The notes under the pieces: model-generated | The model's input: the letters and a program-made list of their open reading frames with translations, nothing else | What the model was told of the DNA's origin: nothing | Database searches by the model: none | Made by a program: the position numbers and the translations under genes | Source: Stachybotrys elegans | Taxonomy: Eukaryota; Ascomycota; Sordariomycetes; Hypocreales; Stachybotryaceae | NCBI GenBank assembly: GCA_020746835.1 | Contig: JAGPNK010000028.1 | Location: forward strand, 1 to 64,000 | DNA length: 64,000 bases | Direction: 5' to 3' | In this document: positions 1,486-64,000 of the stretch, one piece after another | Layout of the letters: each line of letters opens with the position of its first letter | How positions within the stretch are numbered: the first letter of the stretch is position 1

Positions 1486-2970
1486 CTACCGCGCTGCCGT
1501 CTCAGCCTTATGCGCCATGCCAACCATGTCCACCTCCTCATCGTCCTCCCACACGCCATCCTCGTCCTCATCCGGCACCCCAAACACGCTCCTCCACGCC
1601 CTCGCCCACATTCCCTTCTTGTGCAGCAGCGCCAGGATCATCACACCGGGCAGGTGCCACACGCTCGCCCAGAACAATCCCCTCGCACTGCCCGCATGGC
1701 CCTCGTGCCGCCAGAAGCGCACCGCCTCCCTCACGATCCACACGTTGATCGGCAGACTCGTCGCGGCAAAGGACCAATCCGTCACGCCCGCCGCGCACAG
1801 CGCAAAGCACAACGGCGCGAAAACCACGCTGTACCTCAGGGCGACGCGTGCGTTTCGCGCGGGGTTCGTGCACGCGAGCATGCGCAGACCCGCGGCTTTG
1901 TAATCCTCGCGGATGGACCAGCTCACCGCCATGAAGTGCGGGAACTGCCATGCGAAGAGCAGACCCGCGAGCAGCCAGCCACCGATGGAGGAGCCGTCGC
2001 TGGCGAAGAGGAGTTCCTTCCAGGAGCCGTCGCGGGTGGCGACTTCGCCGGCGGCAGCGGCCCAGCCCATCAAAGGGGGAATGCCACCGACGAGACCGCC
2101 AACCCAAGTGTTTGTGACGCTGAAGGCCTTGAGGGGCGTATATATGCCTGCGTAGAGTACAATGTTGGATAACCCGAGGAAGGAGACCGTAGGGTTAACA
2201 CCAAAGTACAAGGCTGCCACGCCTGCCGCGCCTGACAGCACCGCGAAGAGGACGGCGCTGCGGGTTGACAGCAACCGTCTGACCAGCGGCCTATTCCTCG
2301 TTCTTGACATGATGGCGTCTGTCTTGGTTTCGTACAGCATGTTGAGTGCGTTGGCGCTGCTACTGCATAGGAATGTGCCGACCGTGAGGAATAGCAGAGT
2401 CAGCGGGCTGAGCGAGGGTATCTCGGTTGTGCTTGCGCTGAGCAGTTCGGGGACGGGGTACAGCGCGTATGATGCCATGGCCGTGAGTGTGACCAGCATA
2501 GTGAGGCGCGGTTTGGACAGGGAAAGAAGGGTGGCGAGGGTGCGGCGGAGCGAGTTGGACGGGTGTGCGGCGGCGGCAGTCGTAAGGATAGAAGAGGCAT
2601 TGTCGGGGAGCACGGAGGACGAGTCGGGGTCTGCCGCCGAGTCGATTTTCCGTTGGGCCTGTCGCCTGCGATGTGGAGGCAGTTCGGAGGGGGATTGTGG
2701 TGTTTGCGTAGCGTCAATGACTGGTGGCGCTGTAGATGTCGAGGATGCTCGTAGTTTTGACGTCGGAACAAGCCGATCGAGGCATGTCGATCGGTCGAAC
2801 AGCCTATTCGATATGAAGAAGATAGTCGGTGACAACGGCGTGCTAGAAGCAGCGCGAGGGGCCTGTAACCCAACGGCAGAGGCGAAAGAGCGGCATTGCG
2901 TTCGGGCGAGGAACCGCGGGAGGTCGGCCGCGTAGCAAACGGGGAATGGGAATCGTCGGGGTCGCATCAT
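1486..2970 (-). CDS. COX10: COX10, mitochondrial protoheme IX farnesyltransferase
   Basis: This UbiA-superfamily enzyme farnesylates protoheme to heme O, the first step of heme A synthesis for cytochrome c oxidase, in the mitochondrial inner membrane. The 494-residue single-exon frame starts at an ATG-ATG pair. A basic, Arg/Ser-rich N-terminus of ~130 residues fits a mitochondrial presequence plus linker. The membrane domain starts near SLSKPRLTMLV. The prenyltransferase signature follows: an N-x3-E..D motif (NMLYETKTDAIMSRT) followed by RNRPLV, then the conserved AGIYTPLK and the second-motif region WQFPHFMAVSW. Length is normal for fungal COX10. It is the only clear housekeeping gene here and has high GC. 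The C-terminal tail is acidic. No broken residues are seen. Confidence 0.95.
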   Translation of the reverse strand: MMRPRRFPFPVCYAADLPRFLARTQCRSFASAVGLQAPRAASSTPLSPTIFFISNRLFDRSTCLDRLVPTSKLRASSTSTAPPVIDATQTPQSPSELPPHRRRQAQRKIDSAADPDSSSVLPDNASSILTTAAAAHPSNSLRRTLATLLSLSKPRLTMLVTLTAMASYALYPVPELLSASTTEIPSLSPLTLLFLTVGTFLCSSSANALNMLYETKTDAIMSRTRNRPLVRRLLSTRSAVLFAVLSGAAGVAALYFGVNPTVSFLGLSNIVLYAGIYTPLKAFSVTNTWVGGLVGGIPPLMGWAAAAGEVATRDGSWKELLFASDGSSIGGWLLAGLLFAWQFPHFMAVSWSIREDYKAAGLRMLACTNPARNARVALRYSVVFAPLCFALCAAGVTDWSFAATSLPINVWIVREAVRFWRHEGHAGSARGLFWASVWHLPGVMILALLHKKGMWARAWRSVFGVPDEDEDGVWEDDEEVDMVGMAHKAETAAR

Positions 2971-3553
2971 GCACGGCTGAGGGGACCGCGCGTGGCGTTT
3001 GAAAGGGGTTGAGACAGCAGTAGAAGCTCAAGATAATGTCATGAGCAGATGATGAGGGGTGGTGCGGTCGCAATGGCGTGGGTTCGAGGGCGTGGTTGGG
3101 TGTGGGCTTTGCGTCGGGTGAAGCTTGAGAAATCTCGCAATCTAGCCCGAATCGGAATCCCGACCTTTTCCCACAATGGTGGGCCAACGGTGAGCTACCC
3201 TAGACCCAACGGACTCAGCGGACTCGATGATCACGGAACATCATCGTGAGATCCCGAGTATTGCCTTACCTATTCATTCTGTTGCAATGCAGACATTGCA
3301 TTAATGTGTTATTCTTTTTCAATTTTCCTCTCAAAGGGGTGTCGGTCAAGTTCCGATTGCTGACGCAAGCTCATGCAGACGTTGCATGTTAACGTTAATG
3401 TGGAAGAGGCGTTGGAGTTTCGGCTTGGTCGGGGTAATTGCTCCCATTCTGGGATCAGGTGAGGAGCAGCACTTCCCAGATACAACATCCACTGCTATCC
3501 TCATTCTTCTCAACTAAGCAAGTCGTCGCCGAGATCTGGAAAGGAGTAACGAG
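2971..3553. promoter_or_regulatory. Divergent intergenic region between COX10 and the transaldolase-like gene
   Basis: About 580 bp separate the two divergent start codons. Several gttgcat/cattgca-type motifs occur at 3283-3390 (aatgcagacattgcatt, cagacgttgcatg). No open frame in the stretch looks coding. The role as a shared promoter is inferred from gene orientation only. Confidence 0.4.
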
Positions 3554-8327: not shown

Positions 8328-10970
8328 CTAACCGCTTGTGGGCCTGGGAGTGAATAACTGGTTCGCGAAGCAATCCATCCGAGCTTCCAAGGCTTCGGTG
8401 ACTATCAAGCTTATCAGTCTACTAGAACAGCGCGCATCTTGACAATCACTTACACATAAAGATGCGGGGATGCATCAGCTGGCCATGAAATGTGAGAGGA
8501 GCCAACGCACGACTCGCTTGGTCGCCACAATTGATGCCCTGTTCCTCCAGCTCGGCGTAGATCTCTTCCAAAATTGGGCCCGTCGGATCAGAGGTGTGGG
8601 TATCGCTTTCGGTCCTGGACGAAATCCAACTCGACAAAATTAAAGCTGTTTTAGATGAACTTAGTTGGAGACATAGGCCCTAAGAGCATAGTTGTACTGG
8701 AACCAACCTGCTTCGTACGCCGTAACAAAATACTGACATCCAAACGTGAGGCCTGCCGTACGGTGCAATTGCGCCACTCCCATCTTAGCTCTGACCAGCC
8801 ACGAATTGGCGGCGTATCGAACAGCTTTTGGTCCATTTGGTTGAGCGGTAAAGTCAAACTGGAAAGACGAGGACTCATCCCATGGTCGCAGACTTCCTCG
8901 CGCAGCAAGGTGCTTCAAGACGCGCAAGTCCTTGCCAAGATACAAGTGGTAATAAGCGGAGCCGAGAAGAGAGAAACAATCCCCTAGCAGAGAATCCGCT
9001 TGCTTGTAGCTCACCTGGTTGGCGTGAGGATGCGACCTAAAAAGATCTTCCCAAGTGGCCAAAGCTTTCTCCATCCTCGCTGTGAATTCTGAATCAAACC
9101 CACTAAACATCCCTAAAGTAAGTCTTTCATGGTTACAAATATAGCCATAGAGCCAACCAAGAAGAGAAAGTAGACCGTATGAGCTTATTTTCTCCGCAAT
9201 GGGCTCACCACGGATCAGCGACTTTGCCAAGACCATGAGTGATGGTGTAGTCATGTGCAACGATCTGCCACCAAGCAAAGCCCAATCGGCTGCCGACCTG
9301 GCTTTCCAGAACGGCTCCTCTGCGGGCACTGGTATCTCGCACAGTTGATGCGGAAATACGAAGGTCGAGTGCGGATCGTAAGCCAGGATGATGGCACTCA
9401 AATTACAAGTCCAACAGGCGAGACGAGTGTAAGTCTCAACGAAAGACCATGTTTCCCAGTCGAGATCCACCAGGTATGCCTGGCGCTTTTGCTCCAGAAG
9501 ATCCAGACCACGTCGAAGCATCACCGCGATAGAAGAGAACTGTGCCTGCGAGCGTTGAAACCAATCGTCGTTATTGCTGAAAGCTCCCAGTTGGACACAG
9601 AGGAAACTAGCCTGGATTGGCCAGAAATAGGAGCTTGGGCTCTCCCCTCGGTTGTCGGGCGCGTGCCCATAATGATGCAGCAGCTTCCAGCACGCCTCGT
9701 ATGCCGCGCGGGAAAATTGGTGCTCAAAGACGTATTGACTGCCAACTGCCAAAATTGCCAGCACCAGGATGGGATGAGTGTGGCGTATGCTGAACGTTGC
9801 ATGCTGCACGAATGGAACGTGGGAATCGAAGTATTCGAAGTATGCCGTGAGACACCGAACAATGCGTGCTCGCCCTGGAAAAGCAAAACCCTTCACGATG
9901 CCGAAAGTGTCGAGAGCGTGGATTCGTTCGCTAAGCACTGCTGTATCGTCATTTGTGATTTGCAGAGCATGAGCATAACTGATTTCCGCGATTGACCTTG
10001 TATCTTCTTCCACGCTTGCCGTTGAGTGAAGTCTCATCCCATATGTCTGGGACTGCCCTAATCTGGGCTGCATGTCCGATATAAACGGAGTTGTGATGCC
10101 GTTTTTATTCAGATGAGGATGCAGGAGTGCAATATCAGGTTCCATGACGTTCAACCTGCTTTCAGGAAGTAGCCAATCCTCGAGGAAGGTGAGATCATCA
10201 CCAGCACTTAAGCCCGACATGTCCAGCAACGAGCCTTGGAGATTCGACTCTTGATTTGTACCGTCAAGCTCCCCGACTACTTGAAAAGCAGCAGCGGCAC
10301 ATGGACTGTGAGTAGCATTTTGGGTATGCGATTGTAACAATCAGCGTGCTATACCAGACGAGCCATTGGGCCTAAAACCTACAGATGACGGGGATTGGTC
10401 GGCAAGCTGAGGGGCTGCATTGCGGCGAGTATCGTCAAACAGTCCCGGTTGAGCTCCGATATCAGAGACCGTCTCTGAATCAGACAGTCTGCTCAAGAGC
10501 CATATAGGTCAGCTTCTGCCGGCTAATAGTTCATAACCCATAATATATTATCAAGAAACAAACCTCTCTACAAAGTCACCAGGCGGCACGGACCTCCCTC
10601 CTGTGCCCGATACGACTTTAGTTGATGAAGTCCTGGACGTCGCCGATGATTGCAGTTCTGGAAAAGACTGCCCAGGCGTGGTGACACATCTTCGCATGTG
10701 TCGAGTTAAAACATCGGCACGGCCAAAGCAAGAGCCGCAAGCTTTGCAGCAGTGCGATTTCTCACGCTTGTCTGATCAGACCATGTTAGTTGATTAATGA
10801 CGTCGGCACAAGTGGGAGGGCCAAGCACGAGAGTTTAGATGGCGTCGGAGATGTTCAGCTCTAGTATACTGCTTCGAACAAAGCTTGCAAACGTGGCGTG
10901 AGGTAGAAACGTGTGCAGCTGGCGAGCCATCAGCAAGGGTGACTCTAGTGAAAGGCCACGGGTCAGCCAT
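8328..10970 (-). CDS. C2H2 zinc-finger transcription factor with fungal_trans domain, 3' end damaged
   Basis: Exon 1 (10970-10829) encodes the first finger, CKLCSKQYTRAEHLRRHL. A phase-1 intron joins to exon 2 (10771-10564) to give HKREKSHCC and the second finger, CKACGSCFGRADVLTRHMRRC. Exon 3 is 10488-10379. The long exon after it, down to about 8660, carries a fungal-specific transcription-factor regulatory domain (YFEYFDSHVPFVQHATF, LWAL-type region, LLSLLGWLYGYI). Near 8640-8670 the frame hits a stop. Two frame changes are needed to continue into family-like sequence (FNFVELDF, then SDPTGPILEEIYAEL and FHGQLMHPRIFM) and a last exon at 8392-8328. The protein should bind DNA. Whether the C-terminus is intact is doubtful. 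Confidence 0.75.
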
Positions 10971-14027: not shown

Positions 14028-15832
14028 TCATGTATACACGGCCTCCAAGCAGTCCCTCTGGATCAGGGCGGCGTGCGCTGCACTGCGCACCTTGACATCC
14101 AAGGGGAATGGCTCGTCCACGCCCACTCCCATTGGCAGTTTCATGGTGTCGATTGTCTGGTTCACCTTCTCGCTGAAGTCAAAACAGTACAGGAGCCGAG
14201 CTGCTGCAATCCACACATTGAGCTCGCCCACTTTCCAACCAACACATACGCGGCGTCCTAATTCGTTCTCACGAGTAAGCCTCCGTGTATACAACTTCCA
14301 GGATTTGGTCTTCACAGACAGCTCTCTCTAGCGAGGTTTGGTGCAGAGAAAGAAAAAAGAGAAGAAGAAAAATAAATCCACACATACCTGCTCCAAAACT
14401 ATAGTGTCCTTTCAAACCATTGTTGAGATCATCGTTCATATGACGTTCGGGCCAAAATCTCTCGGGTTGCTCATACTCATCGGGGCTGAGCGAGATGTTC
14501 CAGGCATTGAAGGTAAACACAGTACCTTTGGGAAATTTATAGCCTTCGTATTCGTCATCTTTTGTCAGTACAACCGGAACGCCGATTTCAGTGATGTTGG
14601 GTCTCCATCTGAACGCTTCTTTAACCACCGCGGTAATGTAGGGCAAGCTATCCTTGTCGTCCCATGATGGTAGACGTTCACCATTGCTTCCGCAGACATC
14701 ATCCAATTGCTTCTGTGCAGTTTTCGCCCAGTCCGGATACGTCGCGGCCGCGGCAAGAAGATTGCCGACAGTGGCGCGTGAAGTGTCACTGCCTGCCTCA
14801 AGAAGAGTACCGCAGACAAAAAGCTTCTGGGTTTCGTCCATGGTTTGGGCTTCCTTGCTTTCCAAAAGTCTTTTGCGAAGCACTCCGGTGCGTCGCCAGC
14901 CTCCAACCTTTTGCGCAGATGATCTAGTTCCGTCTTGTATACCCTGCAACGAGAAGATAAGCAACTGCCAGGAGGGCCCGAAGACAAAACAAAGGCGCAA
15001 AAACGTTGGGAGAGACTGACGATTTGACTTTTTGAAATTCTCTCTCTCCGTACGGCCGCCACCACTGGAGGAAGACGGGCAGTTTAGCCAGCGAAGGGAA
15101 GGCGTCTACCGTTGCAACACCACCCTGCGCGCTGGCCAAAAACGCCTCGATGGTCTCGAAGAGCAATTTTGTTTCGGGGTCATCCAGTCTCGAACGCACT
15201 CCGAAAACAACATTCCTTATCACCGAGTTGGCGTAGCGTGCGTTTGCAATATACCATTTCTCGGGCGCTTGCAAGTACTCCCAAATCAGTTGTTTGGACT
15301 CGACATCCTGCAATGGCATAAACACATCTTTGACTCTTGTCCCCAAAATCAGATGCATGACCTTGCGGATAAGTCGCCAACGATCACCGTAGGGCATCAA
15401 CAAAACACGGGAGCCGCCTGACATAATATCGTGACTCAACGGAAACGGCGGCCTCGAGCAGTAAATCGCCGCCCGCTTTTCCAGCAGATCCTTGACGACC
15501 CGTGATGAATTGAGGAAGACCCAAGTATTTTCACCCAGTTGAACGGTGAACCTGATTGAGACCATATTGTCAGCTGCCAACGGCCAAGTGCTATGACCGT
15601 AGATGCAGGTTTCACTTGCTTACATTTCTCCATATTTCTCCGCAAGTTTCTTCGCCCAGGTTCCTTGATGTGTCTTGGGGATCTGTAGGGTGTTGCCTAT
15701 GAAAGGAAGCCCAGGAACGCGGGGAGGGAGGTTGTATCTTCTGTTGAATATGATCCGCTGTACGAGCACGTAACCGACATATCCAACCAGCGTGGAAAGA
15801 GCCACGACCGGGAAAGATACACCAAGAGCCAT
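14028..15832 (-). pseudogene. Cytochrome P450 with one apparent frameshift
   Basis: Exons: 15832-15624, 15551-15021, 14943-14388 and 14257-14028. Exon 1 carries a membrane anchor and the Pro-rich hinge (YNLPPRVPGLPFIGNTL). Exon 2 has LLMPYGDRWRLIRKVMH (C-helix). Exon 3 has the I-helix variant LLEAGSDTSRATV, the K-helix KEAFRWRP and the PERF region (YEQPERFWPERH). A 130-bp intron then rebuilds the heme loop FGAGRRVCVGW across the junction. Near 14870 the frame must change by one base between ECFAK and LLESKEAQTMDE. All other landmarks are intact. Either a recent one-base deletion inactivated the gene or this is a sequencing error. The substrate is unknown. Confidence 0.8.
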
Positions 15833-16290
15833 AGTTATAGCTTGGCTCAGTCTTTCTGTCTTTCTGGGTTTACGGAAAGAGCGTTGTTTCGGAAGATTCG
15901 GGGAGTCGTTCTATCTCACTTGCACATTGCAGCCACTCACCCTCTCGAGCCCTTATACTCTGTACATGGTCCACTTCTACCACTCTCCAACTCCAGCTTC
16001 AGGCCGGGCATGCCGTCCCTCCCCACACATAACCCCACTAGGGGCGCCACCCCCACCACATAACCCCATCACTCCGTATGTCTTTTGTGCTACTCCGTAT
16101 GAAGAGGCGGGTTAGCACGGAGTGGCGGTTTTGTCACCACTCACGACCAGCGGTTCTGCCACTACCCACCGCTGACGTGCCCCTCATTTCCATAGCTGCC
16201 CCTCCTAACGAGGAGAACCATGGAACCACAATCTTGCTCTGCCTCGTGGCTAGACACTATACATCGCTCTATTGAACTAGTATAATCGAT
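15833..16290. promoter_or_regulatory. Divergent intergenic region between the P450 and the gasdermin-like gene
   Basis: The 458-bp stretch separates two divergent starts. It is C-rich around 15960-16060 (cccacca/ccccacta runs). It contains a repeated ctccgtatg (16073-16081 and 16093-16101). No coding frame is supported. Confidence 0.4.
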
Positions 16291-17136
16291 ATGGTGAGCA
16301 AGTGTTGGGTAAACACCAGGGTTGAAGACTGGCCTGCGGGCGGATCATTACAGCTAGGCCAAATCCTCAGACAGCCGCTCGATCCCAACACTGCGTGTAT
16401 CCCGCCCGGGTTTATTGCCGCCCCCCCAAAGGGCACTGTCGAGTCTAGTACCCGATTGAATGTGAGCGAGGAAACGAAGGATGAGGTCAGCGCCGGGTTC
16501 AGGGCATGGATAAAGGTTCCTAACCTGGCCACCGGAGGGAATCTGAAAGCTGAGGGAGGGAGCTCCAGCCGGGACGCGCGCCATTTCAAGAGCTTACAGT
16601 CCCAAAAGGCAATATTTGGCACCACCTATGTGCAAGCCGCCTTGGACACCGAGTATGTCAAGGCATACTTCCAGAGCCTCAACGCCTTGGAGCGCAAGTT
16701 CAAACACGTTTGGATGATAACCGGCATCAGGGTTGCCAACGAGGCAACGAAAGAGATGCTTGAGACCAGGAATCACGACTTGCAGGCATCTGCCAACCTA
16801 GACGGCTCAGCGGTCAACGCTCCTGTCGAGGGGGGCCTCGACAGCCACCAAAAGTCAAAGCATGAACATTCGCAGTCTTCAGAAGGGGGCAGCGATTACA
16901 TATTTCAGTACCGGGTCCACCGAGTCAATAAAAGCGTGGGCGTACTGACAGACTGGGACAAAGGCCACTCCGAGACGGTCCAGGCCGGGGATGCCTTCGA
17001 CTTCGAGCTGGTCGCCAATGAGAGGTCGCCGCTCACCGAAGAGGACCTCGGAACTTACGCTGCCGTGTCAGACATCAAAGTCGACGCGGTCGAAGACGAT
17101 GGAGACGACGACGTCTACTTTAGCGCCGCGACTTAG
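16291..17136 (+). CDS. Fungal gasdermin-like protein (HET-Q1/RCD-1-type candidate)
   Basis: The single-exon ATG frame gives 281 residues without a signal peptide, close to the ~278 residues of Podospora HET-Q1. Features resembling fungal gasdermin-like proteins, by recollection rather than alignment, are: an N-terminal start with Trp-rich EDWPAGGSLQLGQIL; the central KHVWMITGIRVANEA segment (residues ~138-152); and a polar region followed by SDYIFQYRVHRVNKS (~201-215). After ~residue 236 (AFDFEL) comes a short, very acidic tail ending DDGDDDVYF. Fungal gasdermins are kept inactive by a small C-terminal piece removed by a subtilase, after which the N-terminal part forms membrane pores. Such a protease is the converging neighbour, ~310 bp away. 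The family call rests on length, motifs and this context. Confidence 0.6.
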   Translation: MVSKCWVNTRVEDWPAGGSLQLGQILRQPLDPNTACIPPGFIAAPPKGTVESSTRLNVSEETKDEVSAGFRAWIKVPNLATGGNLKAEGGSSSRDARHFKSLQSQKAIFGTTYVQAALDTEYVKAYFQSLNALERKFKHVWMITGIRVANEATKEMLETRNHDLQASANLDGSAVNAPVEGGLDSHQKSKHEHSQSSEGGSDYIFQYRVHRVNKSVGVLTDWDKGHSETVQAGDAFDFELVANERSPLTEEDLGTYAAVSDIKVDAVEDDGDDDVYFSAAT

Positions 17137-17449
17137 GCGCGCACGAAGTTCGTTGGAATGGCGAGTATCTGATTGACATGGAGGGGGCTCCAAATGATTG
17201 CGGTGAACGAAACCGTCAGTGCGTCGAATATCGCGGGCCACATGTAACCACTGCAAGCGAGCTCTGCGAATCAGCTTTGTTTGTCTAGCACTACTTGCTC
17301 TCATATTCACTACCCACAAACCTACCTCAAGCGAAATTGAACGGGCTATTCTACTCTTGGTATAAGTCTAAACATCGTATACATAGGAGCTATGTGCTTC
17401 TGCTGAAAGCACCATGTACCAAACAAGAAGGGATTTCCATTACCACAGG
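17137..17449. terminator. Convergent 3' region between gasdermin-like and protease genes
   Basis: 313 bp lie between two facing stop codons. No frame looks coding. Overlapping 3' ends of the two transcripts are likely from the arrangement but cannot be located. Confidence 0.35.
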
Positions 17450-20400
17450 TCAATACAGCCCGCCTGGCTTAAAATCTTGGCACTCCTGGTACGTCCCTCG
17501 CAGACGGCTAGAGATGAGCATCTCCCAGTCTTCTAGAATATTCCCTCTCAAGTTCCGAAGTGGCTTGTCGGTCTTGAAGAGGATCCACGGCTTTAGGATG
17601 TTGTATGCATGGCCCTCGGTCGACGGATTGTTGACCATCAGGTCGAACATGATCTTCTTCATCACCCGTATGTCTCTTAGCCCGTTGCGCTCCACCTGCC
17701 CGTCATACGACCAGACGGCACGCATCGATCGCGTCTTCAGCTGTCGTGCGTAGTCGAGGACGATAGCCGCGATGCCGGCGGCAACGGCGGTCGAGATTGA
17801 GGTGCCCTCCTGTACCACCATGCTGTTGTCTTTCCACGCAGCCGTGATACCCTGCCCCAGGACAGCGAGGTTTGCCCGGCCAGGTTGCGGCAGTGGGCTG
17901 TATGGAGATCGCTCTGAGTTCTCGTTGTGTGAGTTGATGCAGATGGTGAGCTCGCCTGCTGAGGCGGGGAAGCCGATCTCGAGCTCGCGGTCATGGCGAT
18001 TGTTGGACGCTGACGCAAACACCAGCGCGCCCTTCGACTTGGCATACTCTAGCGCTCCCTCTACCAAGGTCCGATCGGGCGACTTACCCAGCGAGAGGGA
18101 CAGGGAGATGATATCGACGCCCCAGCCCTGGTCGGGATTGGCGGCGTGTTGGATTGCCTATATTGCATGCGATGGATTGTAAGCAGATTGTCTCCGGGGA
18201 AGCTCTAACGGAATGTCACCTACACGAGCCACCCGCGAAGCCGTTTGTGGCACCTCCTCGCCGTCCCAGACCCGAGCTACGTATACATCCACATGCTCGG
18301 CCGTCATAAACACCAAGTGGGCCATGTGGGTGCCGTGGCCGTGGTTGTCGATCATGCGTACGCCTTGGTCTTCCACAAAGTCCCAATGGCCGGCAATACT
18401 CCCATTTGCTCCGGGGGCTGCATAGTTATAGAGATGCTGATTCCCGTCTTGGCACCCGGTGTCAATGATGGCCACCTTTACGCGGGTTTTCGTGTCTTCC
18501 GAGGCCAGTCGGTCGTACAGTTTCGTGTTAAGGTACGTCTTGACGTTCTCAATGTTGTTAAACCAGCTTGCTCCCCATGGGACGCTGCATCTTGGTTAAC
18601 GAGGTCAAGTGGCTGGAGATTGGACATCTCTGGTGATAGGTGGCTTGTTGCACTTACTTTGTTGTATCATTGGTCTGACTAACGCCGGGATCCGTCACCT
18701 GAGGTGCAACCGGAGGTGCCGCTGGCGGGGTCTGATATTCGTCAAGCCTTGATTTCTTCCCTGAGGCAGATGCATGAGAAGTAGACGAGTTTCTACGTTT
18801 TCGAGATTCCTGTATGCTCCTCGGTCGCGCTGCCGCGTCCATGATCTTTCGAAACACCTTGTCATGAATGACGCGCCTCGCTGTATCAGCCATTCTCTCT
18901 CTCAGCAGTGGTGCAGTGACGGCTGCTTGACCGTATATGAGATGAAATCTCAAGCAAGATTCCACTGCTGAGAGATAGTCAAAATTGCGTACATCGTCAT
19001 ATTTCTTCTTCTCATTGTCCACGATCTGTTGGAGTTCGCTCCAGGTGCTCCTTTGGTGCGATTCCAGCGTGGGGTACTCCCCTTGGGCCCCGAGCCCGAC
19101 CTGCAGCAACAGCTTGGCGAAGTCGATGAACAGAATTGGCGGCTCTGTATCTTCGGGCTTACCGACCTCCAGTTGCCGCACCGTGTCGGGCGCATGGCCA
19201 CAGCAGATGAAGGCACGATCTATCGATGGGGGCCCCCACGGCCTGCACAAGAAGTGAATTCGACTGGGGTCCCACGGCTCGATGGTGCCCTCGGAGACAA
19301 AACTCAACATGAGGGCCAAAGTCAGTCTCGCGGCAAGAGCACGCTGCGCTGCGATTTCGTCGGGGTTTGCAGATCGTCTTTCCTGGAAGAACCTGCCGGA
19401 TAACAACTGTAGCAGGGTGGTTTGGGGCTGGAAGCCGTTGTGCACTTCCCTGTGTTTCGGATCAATCGACACGACTACCTTTTTATCCTGGAGACCGAGG
19501 CGAAGGCCATCTCTACGATGCCGGTGGCTCCTAATTCGGTCACAAAGCGGTATCTCTTCTCTCCACTTTTGCAAGTCCCTATGGTAAGAGACGGGGTTAG
19601 AGAACATAGGTTTGCATGTGTCATCTGGACTTACATCCGTTCTAGAAGCTCGACCCTCGCCTCCTGCCACTCCCTTGATATCCGGATTTCTCCTGTTTCA
19701 GGCTCGGACTGAACTGGTACTGGTTCTTTACTCTGGACGCCGCGGCTTGACAGAAAATTGCCTAGTCTCTTCATCAGAGGCGGAGCAGGCTTCGTTTCGG
19801 CGGTCTTGGTGGGTAGGCATGTGGACAGAAACAGGTCGACGGGCGAGGGCATGGCGATGAAATCTGACCCTGCCTCGTACAACACAGGGAGTTGGAGTAA
19901 AAGTTGGTGGTCCTTGCAACTCCCTAATCCGGCGAAGAGGGCCACCAAGACGTGCGAGGCTTGTGTCTCGTGGTTACGAAACAGGTCCTGCGGGTCGGCA
20001 CTCCAAGACGTGAAACCCGGCGAAGACTGCATCTCATCAGGCACAAAGAGGACCATTTGAAAGAACACGTTACATGGGACAAGACTCTCAAAGGCCTTTT
20101 CCATGTCTTTCGAGACATCGAACAAGTTGACATTCTCCCCTCCTGCCATCAAATCATAAGAACCCGACGTTGTTTTAATGTGACGAAGGAGACCCTTCAA
20201 AATCTGATACGGGGCTTCAAGCCCTCGTAGGTCTAGAGAGATTTTCGGATTGATAATCGAATCCAGCAGAGAACAGAGATCTGTTAAGACCTCGTGCGTG
20301 TCAGAATATAACTCCGGTTCATCCCAAGAGTCGCAATCCTGGATCACGTCGAGGCCTCGCATGCTGAAAATCTGGCCCAGGCTTATTTGTATGGTTTTCA

Positions 20401-20545
20401 TTTTGTTCCAGTTACTTGCGCCGATATCTTTCAGTAAGCCTCTCGTCCTCCTAAAGGTGCGGAGGCGGCCAGTGAGGACATGTTGACGGAGGCTTCTAAG
20501 CAGCTTCCATTCTGGTGTGTCGGAGATTTGCCTATTTTCAGACAT
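17450..20545 (-). CDS. Subtilisin-family (S8) protease with DUF7580-like N-terminus, HET-Q2-like
   Basis: Four exons (20545-19635, 19578-18658, 18584-18224, 18157-17450) splice in frame to 966 residues. Residues 1-~600 form a long helical region with MSENRQISDTPEWKLLRSL and two Cys/Trp-containing blocks (GRFFQERRSANPDEIAAQRALAARL..LMLSF..PWDPSRIHFLC), which I associate with fungal DUF7580. A Pro/Thr linker follows. The S8 domain starts near 645: Asp652 in VAIIDTG, His694 in HGHGTHMA, the oxyanion Asn near 783 in ASASNN and Ser851 in EGTSISTAVAAG. The triad is complete. In Podospora, HET-Q2, a subtilase encoded next to gasdermin HET-Q1, cleaves it to trigger cell death. This gene has the same neighbour. 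There is no signal peptide, so a cytosolic role is expected. Confidence 0.85.
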
Positions 20546-21246
20546 TTTTCAGGCATTACAGTATTAATATGGATAGAGTCTGCTTCTTCCTGGTGGTGAA
20601 ATTTCCTCTTCACGGCCTAAAGCCGGGCGGATGGTGACGATCAATCGATATGGTCGTGGTTTCAGTTACGTTGAGCAGGCTGGTACTTGAGACGAAGCAG
20701 AATAGACTGCACTCCTGTAAGAGCAAGGCCAAGCAACGCGCCAACCAATACTTACGCCGTGAATAGAGAGACACGAGATCTCTCTTCGAGTGTTCGAGAT
20801 TGGCAGAGGTTGATGTGGCCAAAAGGAGGCTGTGCTGACGTTTGTTGGTTTGAGAGCGCTGTCTTTGCCCTTCCTGTTCCTGAGCACAACGATAATGAAC
20901 AAGGAAAATAGGCTCCAGGTGCAGGTTAGCTGTCAACAAAAGACCGCACAAGATTCAAGAGAGTAGCTGTGTTGCGTTCGTCGCTGCTCAGCTACGATGT
21001 GGAAACGAGGGGTCAGGCGGCTCGTTTCTCTCACCAATCAAGAGCAGTTCACGTGCCTGTTCTCATCACACCACGCATCGAGTGAGGCCAATCATCTTCA
21101 ATCGACGTACATGGGTACCTGAACCCCGCCCAAACTTTGCTAAGCATCTCAGGCTTATGAGCAACATCGACAAAGCGTAGATATACCCATCTAGCCGTTG
21201 GAATATTGCAGCGGTGAACGACTGCCAATGCTGCAGCACCTTCAAA
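20546..21246. promoter_or_regulatory. Bidirectional promoter region between the two subtilase genes
   Basis: About 700 bp separate the divergent start codons at 20545 and 21247. Frames here are short. The two protease genes could be co-expressed from it, but no specific element stands out. Confidence 0.4.
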
Positions 21247-24200
21247 ATGGCGGCTCGCGGCACATTCTTCGAACTTCAAACGGAATACGACGTGAAGCCA
21301 TCAGGCACTTCAAGTCAAAACTCGCCAACCAGCCCAACTTCGAACACTGACCAAGTCTTTCCAACGGGAAAGTCTACCAAGCATGCCCGCGGTGTCTCTT
21401 TCAGAGAGGATGTGAAAGATAACACGAAGCAGTCAGCACAGTCAGGAAAGATGACACCAGAAACTTCAGGAACTTCCCAAGCACATGCAACAATAGACCA
21501 GCCAATTTTGGACATGGCCTCCGAATGCGATGATGCCTTTATTGAGGCGATAGATGGTTCCGAACCCGACCTCCGAACCAGCCTAGAAGAATATCAGAAA
21601 CGGTTTCACGCCTGGGCGTCGTATCTAGGGGTTTTCTCATCCCACAGGTCAAACCTTGACCGTCGACTGAGGCTCCACCCCGAGATCGAGGACATAGTCT
21701 TGTCCACCCTGGACATGTTACTAACAAATCTTGTACAACGTATGTCATAGTCACCGTTGAGTCATTTTAGATCGCTAACAGCCCAAGTCGTACCGAAACA
21801 TCTCCGAGACCCCGCCGCACCATTCAACACTGGCCAGGTGGCCCTCGATGGTGTCCGCAGTGCGGTTGTCGAACTCAACAAGCTCGGCATGAATATTCGA
21901 CAGTCATCCAGTACAGACCTAGAAAGCCGCGTGAAAAGCTTTGCAGTACGCAGGTTGCAAGAGGAAATCAGAAAGTTTGCACCGGTTGCTCTAGCCGCGA
22001 TCAAGACACTCTACCCGAACGCAGCAACATCGCTCCACGATCAGCTGTGCAAGTCAGTCGTGAATCGATATGCCAAGTTACTCTATTGGCGATCTCACGC
22101 CAATAAGCTTGGAGCAGACCTTCGTCCCAAAAGTGATATACATCCGCAAGAACCTAACTCTGACGTGGGAATGACAATGACGAGTCAAGAAACAAGAGGC
22201 AAGCTTGGTCATGTCGTTCCCACCGGCTTGGAACATTGGGCACAAGTTCGCGACCAAGCCATCGGCCTAGGAGAATCTCATCATTTTTATCATGATATAT
22301 CGGCGACAGACCCTTCGACAATGGGCCCCCTCGGCGCCGGGAAAAAGCGAGCTTTCAACTCCGATGCCAGGTCGAGTGACGCATCATCAATCATGTTGAG
22401 TGGAGTTGGGTATCCGAGGCCCCCCAAAATCAACGAAGCCGACAATGAAGCAGCGTGTGATATGTGTTGTAAAAAGTTTGATAGGAAGCAGTACGAAGAC
22501 GAGCGTTGGTGGAGGTATGAGACCGACCATTTCCCAAATGCACACAGACACAGCATGAACTAACACGTCTCAGACAACATGTGCACCAAGACCTCACACC
22601 GTTTATATGCATCTCTCAAGACTGCGTGGACGAGTCAGCGTTTAGCAGCTCCCGCGACTGGAGGTCCCATATGTCCGAGCAACACGATGAAGAATGGTCA
22701 CAGCGGGTACACGTCTCGCCAACTTGGTATTGCGACGTCTGCGGGGAGCAAAGCCTACCATACTCAAGCGTACTGCAGCTCGAAGACCACGTGCGGGCCA
22801 GTCATCAGACCATCTTGGAGGATTTCAGATCATTTTCGAGCAGTTCCATACCCCGCGAGACTCGGCCACTAGGTGTTTGCCCACTGTGCTGCAACGCAGT
22901 CGAGTTACCCAAGGGCGCCACGCTCGATGCGACGGACAATGTACTAGATGGGCTACCAGACATTACTATGGATCAAAGTCCGACCCTAGTGGTTCGCACG
23001 AATGATTCTGCATCGAAACGTCAAAAAGTTACCTCCGATGACGGCACGAGCCACCATAGGGCGACATCCGAAAACGATAATATTGACTCTCTCGTGGCCG
23101 AAACTAGTCAGCCTGTCGATCCGCACCGTTTATCACTCATATTGGCCTTATCGCGACACATTGCTGAGCATTTGCAGTATCTTACGTTCCTTACCTTGAG
23201 GCTCATGCCACACAAACTTTGCGAGGACGGACAAGAAGGGCAAGAAGACGAAACCTGTCAGAGTGATCAAGCAGATGGTGATCAAGCAGACGGCGCTTCG
23301 AACCCCCTAGACGACGAACAAATGTCGTGGGGTACCGATTCTTCCCGAACAGAAGAAGCTAACCATGATTCCTATGGCCGCCCGGTCGACTGGAGAGAAC
23401 TTACGTCACTAAACCTCTTTGGGACGAGCTCGAGTGGTGAGGTCGACGAAATGGAAGGCCCCTTGTACGAAATTATCGTCACATCTCCCGAAGGGGAAGA
23501 ACACCTTACTGCGAGACCCAGTAGTTTGGGCTTCAACCTCATCGCACATGGCACCGTGAATCGGTTGACCAACCCACAGGTGACAGAGATGGCAGACTCA
23601 AAAACCATTCATTTTGGCGACACACAGTTCAGCAGCTCCTATTGCGTTAAACTAACGTGGTATCGGCCTCACGAAACGGTGGTCTACTCCAACGAGTTCT
23701 GGATTGTCGATGATGGCGCCTTGCGCGCAGATGTCTTGTTGGGAGATAGGAGCGTACGAGATCTGAACTCTAACGACAACGGTGTATGCGACAACCCCAC
23801 GGCAAGCCTGAGTGAGATGTAAGTCTTTGAGCTATTCGGGCCTATGACTGTGGTGTAGGCGGCATACTAATCCTGTTTGATACAACTCAGTGCCTTGCGG
23901 ATAGCGCCGAGACTCGCTCGGTGGTTGACAAAGTTGGAACTCATTGTGAAGGCAAGGCAAAAGAGTGGCGTCTTCAAGCCTACCAAAGTAGCGATCCTTG
24001 ATAACGGCATGCTCAATAAGTCCTCCGTTTCGCATGAAGCCATCACGGCTGATGACGCAGCTGGAGGTGGTGGCGAATCGCACAACACGACGACAGCGTC
24101 TGGCTCCAAGAATCAAGGCCGGAAAGGCCCAAGTGGCACAGGTGGCAAGCATGGCAGTACCACGTCAGCCGCGAAGGCAGACGCAGACCTGCGCGAGGAT

Positions 24201-26728
24201 AACCGGAACCTGTGGACCCAGATTGTCGAAGGCCACTCGTTTGTAGGTGGGGAATCTCGTTTCAGCACATGGTTTTCTGCGCCCGACCCCCACGGAACAC
24301 AAATGGCCAACCTGATCTGCGCCATCGACCCGTTCTGCAAACTTTATGTGGCGAGGGTTTCTAAAGATCAGTCTGGTATATCAGCTGAGAGTGTCAAAAA
24401 GGTATGTCTGCCACTAAACTTGACCTGGTCTAGCGATCCTTCCAAATTTTCCTCGGCCCAATTCTTATTCCCAATCAACTTCATGCGATTTTCATGATAT
24501 TTGCATATCCAAAGACTTGTTGCTAACCACATGGTTGTTTACTGGATCGACAGGCCATTGAATGGGCCCGGAGAAAAGACGTCGACGTAATCTCCATGAG
24601 CTTTGTACTCGAGGAAAGCGACAAATCTCTATCCCAGGAAATCGAACGCGCGTCAGACCAGGGCATCGTCATGGTTTGTAGCGCGCGTGATGAGGGAAGC
24701 AGGTTCGCAGAAGCATACCCGGCAGCGGACGGGCTCCGCAAGCGGTCGATCATAGCGCTAGCGGCCTCTGATGAGAACGGGAAGCCCCTCTACGACTTGA
24801 ATGATGATGAGTATAACTACATAATCCGTGGCCAATACGCAGCAGCCGGTGTCGTACCGCCCACCGTCACGGGGACTTCAGCTGCCACCGCACTCGCTGC
24901 CGGCATCTCGTCTCTGACTCTCACGTGCGACCGCCTGGTAAACCCGGACGGTAGTTACGCGCCAGGTGTGGAGGAAGGCAGCCGCTACGAAATGGTGAGG
25001 GACCACATGGATATGATGCAGTCGACCAAAGACAGCAAGTTTGTGCTCCTGGACAAGTTCAACCTCATTGACACATCCTATATTCGCGATATTCTTTCGT
25101 CAGCCGGCCCACCGAACCACACAGCTATCCTACAGAGCCTGGACTATACTGGCCGATCATCCAGAGAAGCAGCCATCTCAACGGCCTACGCAACGACGTT
25201 TGAGTGGATCTTCAACGGGTCAGAGTTTCATTTTCAGAGCTGGTTACAGCAAGACAACGGCTGCTTCTGGATTAACGGAAAGCCGGGCTCGGGGAAGTCG
25301 ACCCTCATGAAACTTATAGCCGGACACCCACACACTGCCAAAGCTTTGTCCACCTGGGCTGGACCCAATCAACTCGTCACGGCCTGTCACTATCTCTGGA
25401 GCCCTGGCACAGCAATGCAAAAATCCCTGGAAGGTCTATTTCGGTCTATTTTGTATAGTATCCTGCGAGGCGCACCTGAACTCATCCCGGCCGTTTGCTC
25501 CAGTGAACGAACAAAGTCATCGGCATCGGCGAATGCACCGTGGTTGAAGGCAGAGCTCATCGCCACTATGCAAAATTTTGCACAATTGACCGAGTCGCCG
25601 GTTAAGTGTTGTATCTTCATCGACGAATTGGACGCCCTTGATTGGGGTCTTCCTGAAGCCGTCCTGCTGATCAGTGATTTCGCACAGTCTCCACACTGCA
25701 AGATATGCGTGTCGAGTCGGCCTTGGAATCTCTTTGAGTTTGCCTTTGGCTCCGATCCCATGCGACGGCTCCGAATCCATGACCTAACACGGCCAGATAC
25801 TGAAGCATACGTAAGGGTCCAACTTGAGAACCATCCAAGCTGGCCTTACAATCAAGGACGTGATGGGACTGCTGCATACTTGATCCGCGAAATCACGGAC
25901 CGTGCGGATGGCGTGTTTCTCTGGGTCGTCTTGGTCACGAAGAGTATCCTCATGGGAGTGACGAACGGTGATACTATCTCTGTTCTTCGACAGCGCATTG
26001 ATGCATTTCCGACAGATATGGAGTCTCTCTTCAAAGAAAGTCTCGAGACTGTCAGCCCATTTTACCGAGAAAACATGGCTGATTCGCTGCTGATTGCTTT
26101 GGCAGCGACCAGTCCACTGCATGTAGCCATCTACCACTTCTGCCAGGAAGGAGATTACGACGCCCAGCCGACTAGACCACTCACGGTCAAAGAACTCTCT
26201 GATTTAGTACAAAATACGTCAAGGCGTCTCGAAAACCAGTCTAAAGGATTGTTGGAAGTCCGCAACGATAATTGTGTCCACTTTCTGCATCGGACAGTAT
26301 GCGACTTTCTTCTAACAGCAGAAATGACAAACTACCTCCAGACACGTTGTCGCCGAAACTTCTCCCCTAGCTTGTCAATTTTCCGGGCATCCGTGGAATG
26401 GATAAAACGATCGTCGTTTCCCAGCGAGATAGATAACCGGGGTGAACCAGATGTCAACAATCAGCCCCAGCTGGGACAAGCCCTGCTGACATCAGCCCTG
26501 ACAGAAGCTCTGCAGTACGCCACTATTTCTAAGGCTGAGAACGAAGTGGCGACCCATGGTGCGCTCGGTGCCCTAGAGCGGTCGATTGGCACGATGGCGG
26601 AGAGTGGGCAAATCATTCTGTCTTGGGAGGCCGGAGGGTTGAGTGCCGCTATACAGGCTAGACACTTGTTTCGTGAGCTAGCCCATCAATTTGGCTTGGG
26701 CGGGTATCTCCAGATGCAGGAAGGCTAA
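21247..26728 (+). CDS. NLR-like protein: zinc-finger-type region, subtilisin (S8) domain and NACHT NTPase
   Basis: Five exons (21247-21739, 21788-22514, 22574-23818, 23891-24401, 24554-26728) join in frame to 1716 residues. Residues 1-~390 are helical. About 390-520 hold C2H2-like fingers (CDMCCKKF, ICISQDC..H..H, WYCDVCGEQ..H..H, CPLCC). The S8 domain has Asp859 (VAILDNG), His956 (DPHGTQMA) and Ser1101 (VTGTSAATALAAG). The usual oxyanion Asn region reads CSARDEG. Then comes a NACHT: P-loop GKPGSGKST (1234-1242), Walker B FIDELDAL (1347-1354), a sensor-like CVSSRPW and a helical winged-helix part. The C-terminus lacks recognisable WD, ANK or TPR repeats. Fungal NLRs with protease effector domains near gasdermins are known, so this is a plausible receptor that cleaves the gasdermin on activation. 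Confidence 0.88.
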
Positions 26729-27832: not shown

Positions 27833-29531
27833 TTAGTGCGACTCGTTGCGCTCATCTTCTGCGGTGATATGAGGCTCCGCCGAATCTGAAAATGCAATGC
27901 GCCACTCTTTATCACCCCCTGCCCGAGGAATGAGCTTGACTTTGACATCCTCATCAGGCTGCTCCATGGCCTCGGCCTGCGACGATTTGTCCCGCGAAGG
28001 GAGGGCCCATTTACCAGATAAGGGGTGCATATCGAATCGCATGATTAGCATTGCCGCCAAGAGGAGTATCTCAGCAGTTGCAAAGTGCCGCCCTGGGCAT
28101 AGGGACGTGCCTCCTCCAAAACCCCGGAATGCGACCGGGTTGGGCCGTTTGGTGCTTGTGCTCTGTGTACGCAAAAAGCGCTGATGGTTGAATTCAGACC
28201 AGCTGTCCCCCCAAATGTCTCTATCACTATGCTGTACTCGGCCAGGGATCATGATCAAGCCCCCCCTTTTGATGAGATACTGGTTATCCAACATATAATC
28301 CTCGGAAGCCACCCGGACTGAGTTGCCCATGCCATGCACACGGAAGACTTCTTGGAAGGTTGAAACCAGAATGGGGCATGAATTCTTGATGATGGAGGAG
28401 TCTAGAGTATAGACATCGTCCTTTTTTGTTACTGCCTTTGAAACTTCACTTCGACAGTCTTCAAGTGTCTCTGGGTTAGAGAAGACGCGATAAGTCATCC
28501 AGAATGCTGTTGGAGAAGTGTTTGCCACAAGCGCAAATAGGCCGCCAACATGGAATCTGGCGATATCGTTTTTGCTTAGTCCGAAACTCTGAAAATGATC
28601 CATCCATCGCTGGATAAAGACAGAGCCAGATGTATAGCCTTTCTCGTCATTGTATCGCTCAAAAGAACGAACCAGGTGTTCGCGACCTTGAATACTGGAT
28701 TTGAACAAGGAGAGTGGCAGAATATCGAGCATCATGAACATTATGGCAGGGTGGTATTTCCTAGAAGCCCAGCCAGCGCGTCAGTGAAACAAGGTACCAT
28801 GGGCGGTGTGAAGGTAGACAAACAGCCAAGCTGAATAGTTGTCAGGGTCCCGCATGGGGTTTTTCGGTCCATATATACCGTCGGTGGTTGCGTAGAAGAT
28901 TTGCTCGGTCACGAATTCATTCAGATTCACGATTGCCGGGCCCTGAATGGCAAATCGAGCCATGGTGTCGATAAGAACCTGCGTTGCTTTCTGGTTCAGG
29001 TCATTGAGTGCAGGGCCGCTGCTCAAGGTCGGGTATATTTTCTTGATGAATTTCGGAACGAATCCCTCATCAGTGACCATGTCATGACAGAGAATGTCCA
29101 ATGCTTCTTTGCTCGCACCCATGGCTGTCTTGGCCGCTCTGGCTTGGATCGGAGGGAACAGAAGCGTGCGCCATTGCTTCTGTACGGCCGGGATCAGATT
29201 GGCAGAGTTGATGACGTAGAGACGAACTCCCGGAATGCGCAGGGTATATATAGGAAGTCGCGGGTATAGGTCTCTATGGTATCTGTGAGATGGACGATCA
29301 GGTCCGGATGGGGCAAGCTGCCAACCTCATATGACTGTAAAAGCCCATGCTATGGTAAACCATGCTCAGGATTGGACTCAGGAACGGAATGGACGTGGAG
29401 ACAGCTTTGGGCTCTCTCGCGTCCTGTGTTAGCTGCAACCAAGCCCAGAAGAACGCGTAAGTGGCACCGAGGCCAGCGAGAAACTCAACCCAAGTCATTG
29501 TGCTGATGCTCACGCCGTACTCGCCGTGCAT
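27833..29531 (-). CDS. Cytochrome P450 (CYP7/CYP8-like fungal type)
   Basis: Three exons (29531-29326, 29273-28824, 28760-27833; introns of 52 and 63 bp) give 527 residues. The N-terminus has one membrane anchor (WVEFLAGLGATYAFFWAWL). The C-terminal half has an I-helix-like LFALVANTSPTAFWM, in which the usual acidic/Thr pair is replaced by Asn-Thr. It also has a K-helix FQEVFRVHG and the heme loop FRGFGGGTSLCPGRHFA with the axial Cys. The GGGTSLCPGRHFA form and the I-helix Asn are typical of the CYP7/CYP8-like group, some members of which are isomerases or dehydratases rather than monooxygenases. No break is seen. The substrate is not inferable and no biosynthetic neighbour is present. Confidence 0.88.
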
Positions 29532-47860: not shown

Positions 47861-49752
47861 CTACTCAATTGTAATCATCTTCTCCTTAGCCCCTAATAAC
47901 CAGAGAGGGGGCCCGCCTGCTTCAACCTTGTCAAGAGGTATTCCTTCACCAGTCATGTAGACTATCGACGGGCTCAAATCCCCAACTGCAGCTGGGAGGG
48001 TCATGTTTGACCCAGAAACCCTAACAAGGCAAATTCTCTGATGATGCGTCCCTTCAAGCCTTACAAGAATGAGAGTATACCTCCACGTCTTGTTGCTCCT
48101 TGCAAAAACAAGGCCCAAGGCCCCGTCATCCAACCTTGCGTCCTTATCCATGTATGCGTAAGAGAAAGCCATGACATTTTCACGAATTGGAAGAACGGCA
48201 TGAGTCCCATCAAGGAACCGCATACCACCAATATCACTCCTGCTGCCTTTGCTCTTATTGAGCTCAGCCCAGTTCTTCTGCTCAAACCTGACACAGACTG
48301 TCTTAGCAGAGATGCGCAGCACCCGGGGAGTATCCACAGTCGTTACAATCGCCTTTCTCAGTTCCTCACGGAGCCAATCACCCAACGGTACTGCGACCAT
48401 TTTCTCGCACCAACGCAATCTTGTGATCGTCCGAGTAGATATCGGGCTCGTCCATACGAACCCCACCGACCCATCCTGACCAGCTCCAGCTCGGGAATTG
48501 TTCGCACCTCTTAGCAACCACCTCATGGTGCCAGGCTAGGGAAAGTTTCAACGAATCGGATGTCGTTTCACTGGCTTTGCTAATGGGTATGCCTTGGATG
48601 TGTCGAATACCTTTTCGTTCCAGAGTACGAAAATCCCGAGAAACGCACTTATGGAGTCTGATTTCTCGGTCAAGTGACGCTCGGTGTAGTTTGGCAGCAG
48701 CTTTTTCTTCAATTGATACCAGTATGTAGTCAATGGGCTGGGAAATTCTATGCAGAGGAAACTGATGAGGTATTATCTGTTCAAAGATAGCGGCATCTCT
48801 TTCCATGTCGTCTGCAATCTCCCTTACGGTCTCTGCCAGGGGCTTCTTTATACTCTCCGATTGGTGCATGGTGTTGCATAGATATGAAACCTCGTCATCA
48901 GTGAAAATGAGCCTCCTGGGAGATAGATAGCACTCCTGATAGGTCCAGCCACGCTGGGCCCACGTCGACTGAAAGATTTGACTCGGTGTATGCGGAAGCA
49001 TCCCGACAAGCGCAACATCCTTTATGATCACTTCTTCCACGAGAGACCGGCTCTTATTTCCAATGCCTGGTAGCCCATACGTAGAATCCTACCACCTGGG
49101 GAGAGGGTAAAACTTACGCAACCTCCAATTTGTTGTTCCAGGCTGCCCAATGTAGTGGCGTGTTACGATTATTATCAACCCAGAGCGGGCTTGCGCCTAG
49201 ATTTATTAATAGTTCCATGGCTCTAGGATAGCCACAGACAGAGGCATGATGCAAGGCCGAAAGCCCCTCATAGTCCTTCCGAGTTATATCAGCTCCGAAC
49301 TCACGCATCAGAGTTTCTATCATATCACTTTGGCCCCCTCTAGCAGCCACCATCAACGGCGTCCGGCCATCGTTATCCGGCCCATCAACTTCGGCTCCGC
49401 AAGAGCGACATAGTAAGAGGAGAGTCTCCATCTGGGTGCCTATAATGGAGAAGTGGAGAGGCGTCTGGCCGCGGTTATTCCCCGCTTCTACCTTGGCGTT
49501 TTCGCGGTACAGGAGGCTTAGGATATCGCATGAAGCGTTCTGTGCAGCGAAGTGTAATGCAGTTCGTCCAGCATCATCTTGGGAGTTGACGTCGGCGTCG
49601 TTTTCGATCAGACGTCTGACGAGCTCTAGACTGTCCTCCTTGGCAGCCCATAACAGTGCTTCACCTTTATCGATCTGGTTGCCGCTTGGATGAAAGCCCT
49701 CGTCAAGTAGGCGTGTACCCAGGAAGGAGGAAATAGGAAGTATGTCGGCCAT
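47861..49752 (-). CDS. Ankyrin-repeat protein fused to the C-terminal half of a HET domain
   Basis: The ATG at 49752 starts about six ankyrin repeats (GEALLWAAKEDSLELVRRL, GRTALHFAAQNASCDILSLL, GQTPLHFSII, GRTPLMVAARGGQSDMIETL, GLSALHHASVCGYPRAMELL, NTPLHWAAWNNKLEVA). A GTAAGT donor follows at 49101. After it, family sequence resumes inside a HET domain: GLPGIGNKSRS, STWAQRGWTYQECYLSPRRL, FTDDEVSYLC and, later, PSWSWSGWVGG. The N-terminal half of HET (the ALSYVWG and WVDxxCIDQ regions) is absent. The last part (47861-48480) has a different frame and needs an intron or frameshift near 48380-48480. It looks like a gene fusion, possibly non-functional. Confidence 0.65.
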
Positions 49753-63716: not shown

Positions 63717-64000
63717 TGTTCAAGATTGCGCGATGCGTTTGTGATGAGAGAGGAGGCTGAAGGATTGCCAGGATGGAGATGGTGGAAGAAATTAATCCGT
63801 AGGATGTCCTTATCTAATCTGGGGTCCCCTAAAATGCGTCGTCTGACAATAATCCCTTGTTCTCCCAATCATCATTGGCATTGAGAACCTAGTCATCAGA
63901 GGGCTCCCATTTTTATGCATTTGAAGCTGCTACCTAGGAATCCATAGTCTTCTCGTTGCGGCATTATGCAATCGCAAGCGAGTTGTATTCGTTAACATGC
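63717..64000. promoter_or_regulatory. Upstream region of the HET gene to window end
   Basis: About 280 bp with no supported frame. It is the presumed promoter side of the HET-domain gene. Confidence 0.35.

Follow-up and report, generated by a model that had tools for sequence, protein, structure and literature searches.

Can a single fungal gasdermin answer to two receptor-proteases of separate origin? The question is raised by a locus of Stachybotrys elegans (Ascomycota, Hypocreales) in the first 64,000 nucleotides of contig JAGPNK010000028.1 (assembly GCA_020746835.1; here, the window, contig C21 of the scanned host genome of 43.4 Mb and 61 contigs). Three genes occupy 16.3-26.7 kb: a gasdermin gene (+), a gene for a HET-Q2-like protease with a DUF7580 region and an S8 (subtilase) domain (-; here, Q2L), and a gene for a NOD-like receptor (NLR)-like protein carrying an S8 domain of its own (+; here, NLR-S8). 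The gasdermin and Q2L genes lie tail-to-tail, followed by Q2L and NLR-S8 head-to-head. A first-pass annotation of the DNA had read the locus as a gasdermin-like open reading frame (ORF), a HET-Q2-like S8 gene and an S8-NACHT gene, and had proposed that both proteases act on the same gasdermin. Our analysis recovers the three genes at the same coordinates. With a probability of roughly 0.75, we regard the locus as a fungal pyroptosis-like death module, composed of a gasdermin and a dedicated DUF7580-S8 sensor-protease and accompanied by a second sensor.

The gasdermin assignment of the 281-residue protein is borne out by its profile, its fold and the S8 pairing of its paralogues. A Pfam scan of the protein gave no match, and phmmer with the single sequence against the PDB returned chance matches only; RCD-1 was reached by profile alone, all four PDB sequences found at E<=1 with a 60-member profile being RCD-1, so that the nearest solved structures are those of RCD-1. 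A gasdermin profile from which the window protein and its 51% relative had been excluded scores the window protein at 45.1 bits; because the same profile gave at most 5.9 bits in 1000 shuffles of that protein, the match goes beyond chance. The gasdermin pore-forming fold was also looked for in a predicted structure, where it is present. Together, these results and the predicted model support membership in the fungal gasdermin family. A database protein of S. elegans, B0I35DRAFT_454084, is identical at 271 of 281 residues to one locus of the genome; the other residues fall in a single gap of 10, which may stem from an intron call.

Ten gasdermins were found in the genome, on contigs C21, C9, C7, C6, C23, C60, C34, C4, C3 and C2; seven further protein queries completed the set, the last two adding none, and more divergent members may exist. 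Gasdermin profile A2 scores the eight outside A2 as follows: C7, 73.1 bits; C23, 59.9 bits; C3, 47.2 bits; C6, 41.6 bits; C60, 36.5 bits (better of two pieces); C34, 33.2 bits; C4, 30.8 bits; and C2, 23.4 bits. The S8 family amounts to 85 pieces, merged into 67 loci. Of the ten gasdermins, eight have an S8 locus no more than 3 kb away, against an expectation of 1.2% for each (binomial tail, 1.8e-14). Six of these eight S8 partners (C21, C9, C7, C6, C60 and C34) carry DUF7580, that of C23 carries ankyrin repeats, and for that of C4 Pfam gave no match in the piece scanned. CHAT proteases were considered as alternative partners and dropped, as none of the five matches in the genome lies near any of the ten gasdermins. 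The pairing agrees with the figure of about 80% of fungal gasdermins paired with a protease gene (PMC12881547, PMC10197012, PMC10989679; here and below, published work is cited from the accessible parts of each source); subtilase adjacency thus holds for the paralogues here and, according to these reviews, for most fungal gasdermins.

The window pair fits this pattern. Only 578 bp separate the gasdermin gene from the S8 domain of Q2L, well within the 10 kb taken as the limit for a protease partner, and the catalytic residues of Q2L are complete, including the oxyanion Asn. The earlier description of an adjacent HET-Q2-like subtilase with an intact Asp/His/Ser triad is therefore upheld, and the same type of pairing at seven of the nine other gasdermin loci backs its reading as a partner. 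The 43 residues that follow F236/F238 of the gasdermin include 13 D/E and 2 K/R, and the block FDFEL.ANE.SP is retained in the 51% relative. HET-Q1 of Podospora anserina has 278 residues and is cut by HET-Q2 with F238 as P1, which removes 40 residues; that two-gene system needs a single protease (PMC10989679). By analogy, cleavage of the window gasdermin is predicted near F236/F238, freeing the acidic tail. The gasdermin would be synthesised inactive, restrained by this short tail; Q2L would sense a stimulus via its DUF7580 part and, once activated, would cut the gasdermin as HET-Q2 does HET-Q1; the freed N-terminal part may then form pores and cause cell death. NLR-S8 would be a receptor in which the S8 domain, with Asp at the oxyanion position, is preceded by an N-terminal module and followed by an NPHP3_N-DUF7791 core, and most likely it also feeds regulated death, whether through this gasdermin or otherwise.

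Several points weigh against the death-module reading. (i) Two of the ten gasdermins (C3 and C2) have no S8 gene within 10 kb. (ii) The AlphaFold2 model of the gasdermin is of moderate quality, with a predicted local distance difference test (pLDDT) value of 64.2 and a predicted template modelling (pTM) score of 0.56, and it leaves the C-terminal tail unresolved (pLDDT <50 at residues 218-248 and 260-281). (iii) The likeness to HET-Q1/HET-Q2 was taken from descriptions, not from sequence alignment, and the agreement of F238 with the P1 residue of HET-Q1 may be a mere coincidence of numbering. (iv) The evidence for the module consists of sequence and predicted models.

The claim of a second S8 domain within a NACHT protein is substantiated with one amendment. 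The central P-loop NTPase of NLR-S8, of the NACHT/STAND kind, is recognised by way of NPHP3_N, as NACHT itself scores 18.5 bits, below its cut-off of 26.7. The Asp/His/Ser triad of the S8 domain is complete. This domain is not N-terminal in the predicted gene model, standing behind a module of about 820 residues; DUF7791 is all that follows the NTPase, and the 12 Pfam families matched at E<=1 include no C-terminal repeat sensor (ankyrin, TPR, WD40 and the like). The S8 unit starts near residue 822, in the area of the motif LSEIA.RIAP.LARWL, which is shared with the homologue P0063 and spans the exon 3/4 splice; it ends, by eye, near residue 1178, ahead of the NLR core. Although the exon boundaries of Q2L and NLR-S8 are GT-AG models predicted from sequence, the fusion of S8 to NTPase is independent of them, because the catalytic-Ser half and the P-loop share one unbroken ORF (24527-26728). 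P0063 also backs the exon 3/4 junction: it reads NLSEIAYRIAPKLARWL, and the model reads SLSE followed across the junction by IALRIAPRLARWL.

As to the origin of this protein, the best relative of its core in the genome is a SesA-NPHP3_N-DUF7791 NLR (C7:699880), which has the same core (38% identical) but, instead of the N-terminal module and S8 domain, a SesA domain encoded by the adjacent ORF upstream. With SesA just upstream of the same core, the simplest account is that NLR-S8 was built by a swap: an S8 module with the oxyanion Asp would have replaced the N-terminal domain usual in such proteins, with an additional Cys/His-rich module in front of it. In a survey of NLRs of Sordariales, an order to which S. 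elegans does not belong, Peptidase_S8 is rare or absent as an N-terminal domain and zinc fingers are mostly C-terminal (PMC12258605).

The S8 domain of NLR-S8 is of another lineage than that of Q2L. A tree was built from 18 S8 domains found in the genome; several of its branches are long and the finer order is less sure. In it, 12 domains (the eight gasdermin-linked ones, that of NLR-S8 and three others) are split from six secreted, proteinase-K-like or other domains with support of 99/99; judging from the accompanying domains, the 12 would be of an intracellular type. Within this wider group the NLR-S8 domain is placed with C7:554955 (C7b; 99/96) and C4:723813 (C4b; 98/97) and not with the gasdermin-linked domains, and the tree thereby speaks against an origin of NLR-S8 by duplication of Q2L, an idea that we rejected. 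The 10 kb read around each of C7b and C4b (4 to 6 kb either side) yielded no gasdermin; the profile used there included several of the queries, so the scores that it gave to L009 (C3), L016 (C2) and the window were disregarded. The nearest known gasdermins lie 130 kb and 41 kb away, respectively. As a side observation, one S8 domain on contig C28 (G000:C28:176777-177166; L035:4308-5388), behind ankyrin repeats near the contig end, is the third of the unlinked domains in the group of 12 and is placed by the tree between gasdermin-linked ones; its catalytic Asp is replaced by Ser and its oxyanion residue is Gly, and it is probably an inactive protease to judge from these residues. The 7.6 kb read there contained no gasdermin that we could find.

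When residues 600-1230 of NLR-S8 were used as a protein query, 21 matches were listed (P0063-P0083) from many ascomycete genera, 945-1572 residues long and mostly 1000-1100, all of them S8 or ankyrin-S8 proteins. These proteins, of which P0063 of Echria macrotheca is an example, belong to the same S8 subfamily and are 37-52% identical, in most cases across the S8 unit only; unlike NLR-S8, they are listed with ankyrin repeats or with S8 as the sole Pfam domain. None of the 21 matches listed has a NACHT-type or NPHP3_N domain, the search being limited in length and capped in its number of candidates, so that such a fusion elsewhere could escape it. Asp occupies the oxyanion position in all 21, in NLR-S8, in C7b and in C4b, and Asn does so in all eight gasdermin-linked domains. 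The replacement of Asn might mean that the NLR-S8 protease is catalytically dead or a decoy, an explanation to which we give very little credence: the 21 homologues all keep the Asp together with the His and a GTS or GSS serine motif, and 19 keep the catalytic Asp, which is Glu in P0078 and unaligned in P0082. Across the whole comparison, each row that aligns over the serine motif has it. The proprotein convertase PC2 is an active enzyme. It carries the same Asn-to-Asp change (PMC6313938). From its residues, NLR-S8 is probably an active protease of another type, and its specificity likely differs from that of Q2L, given the different S8 subfamily and oxyanion residue.

Does NLR-S8, then, act on this gasdermin? 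That it is an unrelated neighbour, directed at something else or at another gasdermin in a region with several self/non-self-type genes, we consider nearly an even chance. The two paralogues without a nearby gasdermin in the well-supported subclade point this way, as does contig C23, where a second S8 gene lies <1 kb from the gasdermin. That gene opens, by eye, with a signal-peptide-like stretch and looks like a bystander, so C23 was dropped as a second case of one gasdermin with two activators, and proximity alone becomes weak evidence. NACHT-type genes about 4 kb (C2) and about 14 kb (C7) from gasdermins, whose scanned ORFs showed no S8, suggest that immune-type genes gather anyway, and the window itself holds HET and ankyrin genes. 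If all 59 non-partner S8 loci (67 less 8) are counted, at least one would fall within 10 kb of one of the ten gasdermins in about one of four genomes; if only the non-partner loci identified as of intracellular type are counted, of which there are at least four, 28 of the 67 loci having been read, the chance is about 2%. Both values are post hoc arithmetic and depend on which S8 loci are counted; the background at 10 kb is about 3% per gene for the S8 loci here. Against mere neighbourhood stand the divergent arrangement of NLR-S8 and Q2L, 701 bp apart, and the report of S8-bearing NLRs beside gasdermins (PMC9815663). These same features, the proximity and the shared divergent promoter stretch, the complete triads of both proteases and the occurrence of NLR-S8 proteins beside gasdermins in other fungi (PMC12881547, PMC9815663), would suit convergent activation, in which Q2L and NLR-S8 both cut the gasdermin and one executioner has two independent triggers. 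However, the probably different specificity and the two paralogues without a gasdermin found nearby argue against it, and its odds are lowered slightly by the count of four being a minimum; we hold this idea to be doubtful. Slightly more doubtful is its fuller form, in which two receptor-proteases of separate origin, a DUF7580-S8 protein and an NLR with an S8 module from the ankyrin-S8 family, converge on one gasdermin at the same or different cut sites. The proposal that both proteases act on the same gasdermin thus finds no support in lineage; of the earlier interpretation, the gasdermin and its HET-Q2-like partner stand, and the action of NLR-S8 on this gasdermin is so far unsupported. A cascade in which activated NLR-S8 cuts or releases Q2L, which then cuts the gasdermin, would be in keeping with the head-to-head gene pair, and a second protease of a different type suits an upstream role, yet the published system manages with one protease (PMC10989679) and we regard a cascade as unlikely. 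Least probable of all is activation of the gasdermin by an allelic variant and not by cleavage: the nearest solved structures are those of RCD-1, which requires two allelic forms (PMC12881547), but the gasdermin here has a long acidic tail and, unlike that of C2, a protease gene as its partner.

The features of the death module and its second sensor are collected in the following table.

Features of the gasdermin, Q2L and NLR-S8 genes (window positions)
Feature	Positions	Strand	Basis
Gasdermin-like pore-forming protein, 281 residues, single exon, no intron	16291..17136	+	ORF, profile, fold
Acidic C-terminal tail, residues 239-281, predicted to be removable	17005..17133	+	Analogy with HET-Q1
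Q2L gene, 4 modelled exons, 966 residues, DUF7580 and S8	17450..20545	-	ORFs, Pfam
Q2L exons, modelled	20545-19635, 19578-18658, 18584-18224, 18157-17450	-	GT-AG models
DUF7580 region of Q2L, residues 290-553	18831..19678	-	Pfam, 140.6 bits; coordinates converted via exon model
S8 domain of Q2L, residues 645-879; D652, H694, S851, oxyanion Asn	17714..18484	-	Pfam, 74.8 bits
Divergent intergenic stretch, 701 bp, between modelled start codons of Q2L and NLR-S8	20546..21246		
NLR-S8 gene, 5 modelled exons, 1718 residues	21247..26728	+	ORFs, Pfam
NLR-S8 exons, modelled	21247-21739, 21782-22514, 22574-23818, 23891-24401, 24554-26728	+	GT-AG models
N-terminal module of NLR-S8, Cys/His-rich zinc-finger-like stretches	21247..23818	+	By eye; Pfam, no match
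S8 domain of NLR-S8, residues 856-1116; D861, H958, S1103, oxyanion Asp1040	23985..24919	+	Pfam, 34.4 bits; coordinates via exon model
Intron interrupting the S8 domain of NLR-S8	24402-24553	+	Exon model
NPHP3_N/NACHT-like P-loop NTPase domain of NLR-S8, residues 1209-1383	25196..25720	+	Pfam, 77.4 bits
DUF7791 of NLR-S8, residues 1494-1614	26051..26413	+	Pfam, 53.7 bits

Genes of the cytochrome P450 type flank the module at 14272-15910 (by eye) and 27836-28780 (Pfam); with a UbiA prenyltransferase (1489-3027) and a fungal transcription factor (8664-10340), they are possibly parts of a metabolite cluster. The further self/non-self-type genes of the window are an ankyrin gene piece (49117-49764) and a HET-domain gene (61992-63719). 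Among the other gasdermins, that of C3 (G000:C3:890275-891141; L009:5275-6141) adjoins a HET-domain gene and a serine-hydrolase-like gene (by eye). That of C2 (G000:C2:1386065-1386977; L016:4065-4977) is RCD-1-like by eye, apparently with an intron, and is followed about 4 kb downstream by an NPHP3_N gene and then by an ankyrin-like ORF (by eye). The C60 gasdermin (G000:C60:1818367-1819379; L012:4367-5379) consists of two overlapping open pieces, owing to an intron or a lesion.

One executioner beside two protease-bearing sensors of different lineage would allow a direct test of whether inputs converge on a single gasdermin; in mammals, several caspases converge on GSDMD. The S8 subfamily with the oxyanion Asp, conserved, found in many ascomycete genera and fused here to an NLR core, is a testable unit in itself. 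The stimuli behind fungal regulated-death pathways are considered a major open question (PMC12881547). In the accessible literature on fungal gasdermin/protease clusters, with Clave et al. 2022 and supplements outside its scope, we found no gasdermin with two proteases and no S8 domain with an oxyanion Asp in an NLR; two- or three-gene clusters are mentioned in a review (PMC12881547).

Compared with known systems, the window gasdermin resembles RCD-1 of Neurospora crassa in the fold and profile of its pore-forming part and differs in having a protease partner and an acidic tail; RCD-1 becomes active by meeting its allelic partner, without being cleaved (PMC12881547). With HET-Q1/HET-Q2 it shares a length of about 280 residues, an S8 protease partner, and a Phe at or close to position 238, beyond which some 40 residues form a tail. 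However, HET-Q2 has 388 residues (PMC10989679) versus 966 in the DUF7580-S8 protein here, and HET-Q1 and HET-Q2 are idiomorphs (PMC12881547), whereas the two genes lie side by side in S. elegans. The locus also resembles the fungal gasdermin/Q2L two-gene clusters of Clave et al. 2022, as summarised in reviews, where an S8 gene lies no more than 10 kb from the gasdermin and the proteases are multidomain, some of them being NLRs (PMC12881547, PMC10197012, PMC9815663, PMC10989679). The locus differs from them in that Q2L is joined by an NLR-like protein with a separate S8 domain bearing the oxyanion Asp, placed behind a long N-terminal module and not at the N terminus. The window pair is a further example of the known gasdermin/Q2L type, and the extra NLR with its Asp-oxyanion S8 domain is what makes the locus unusual.

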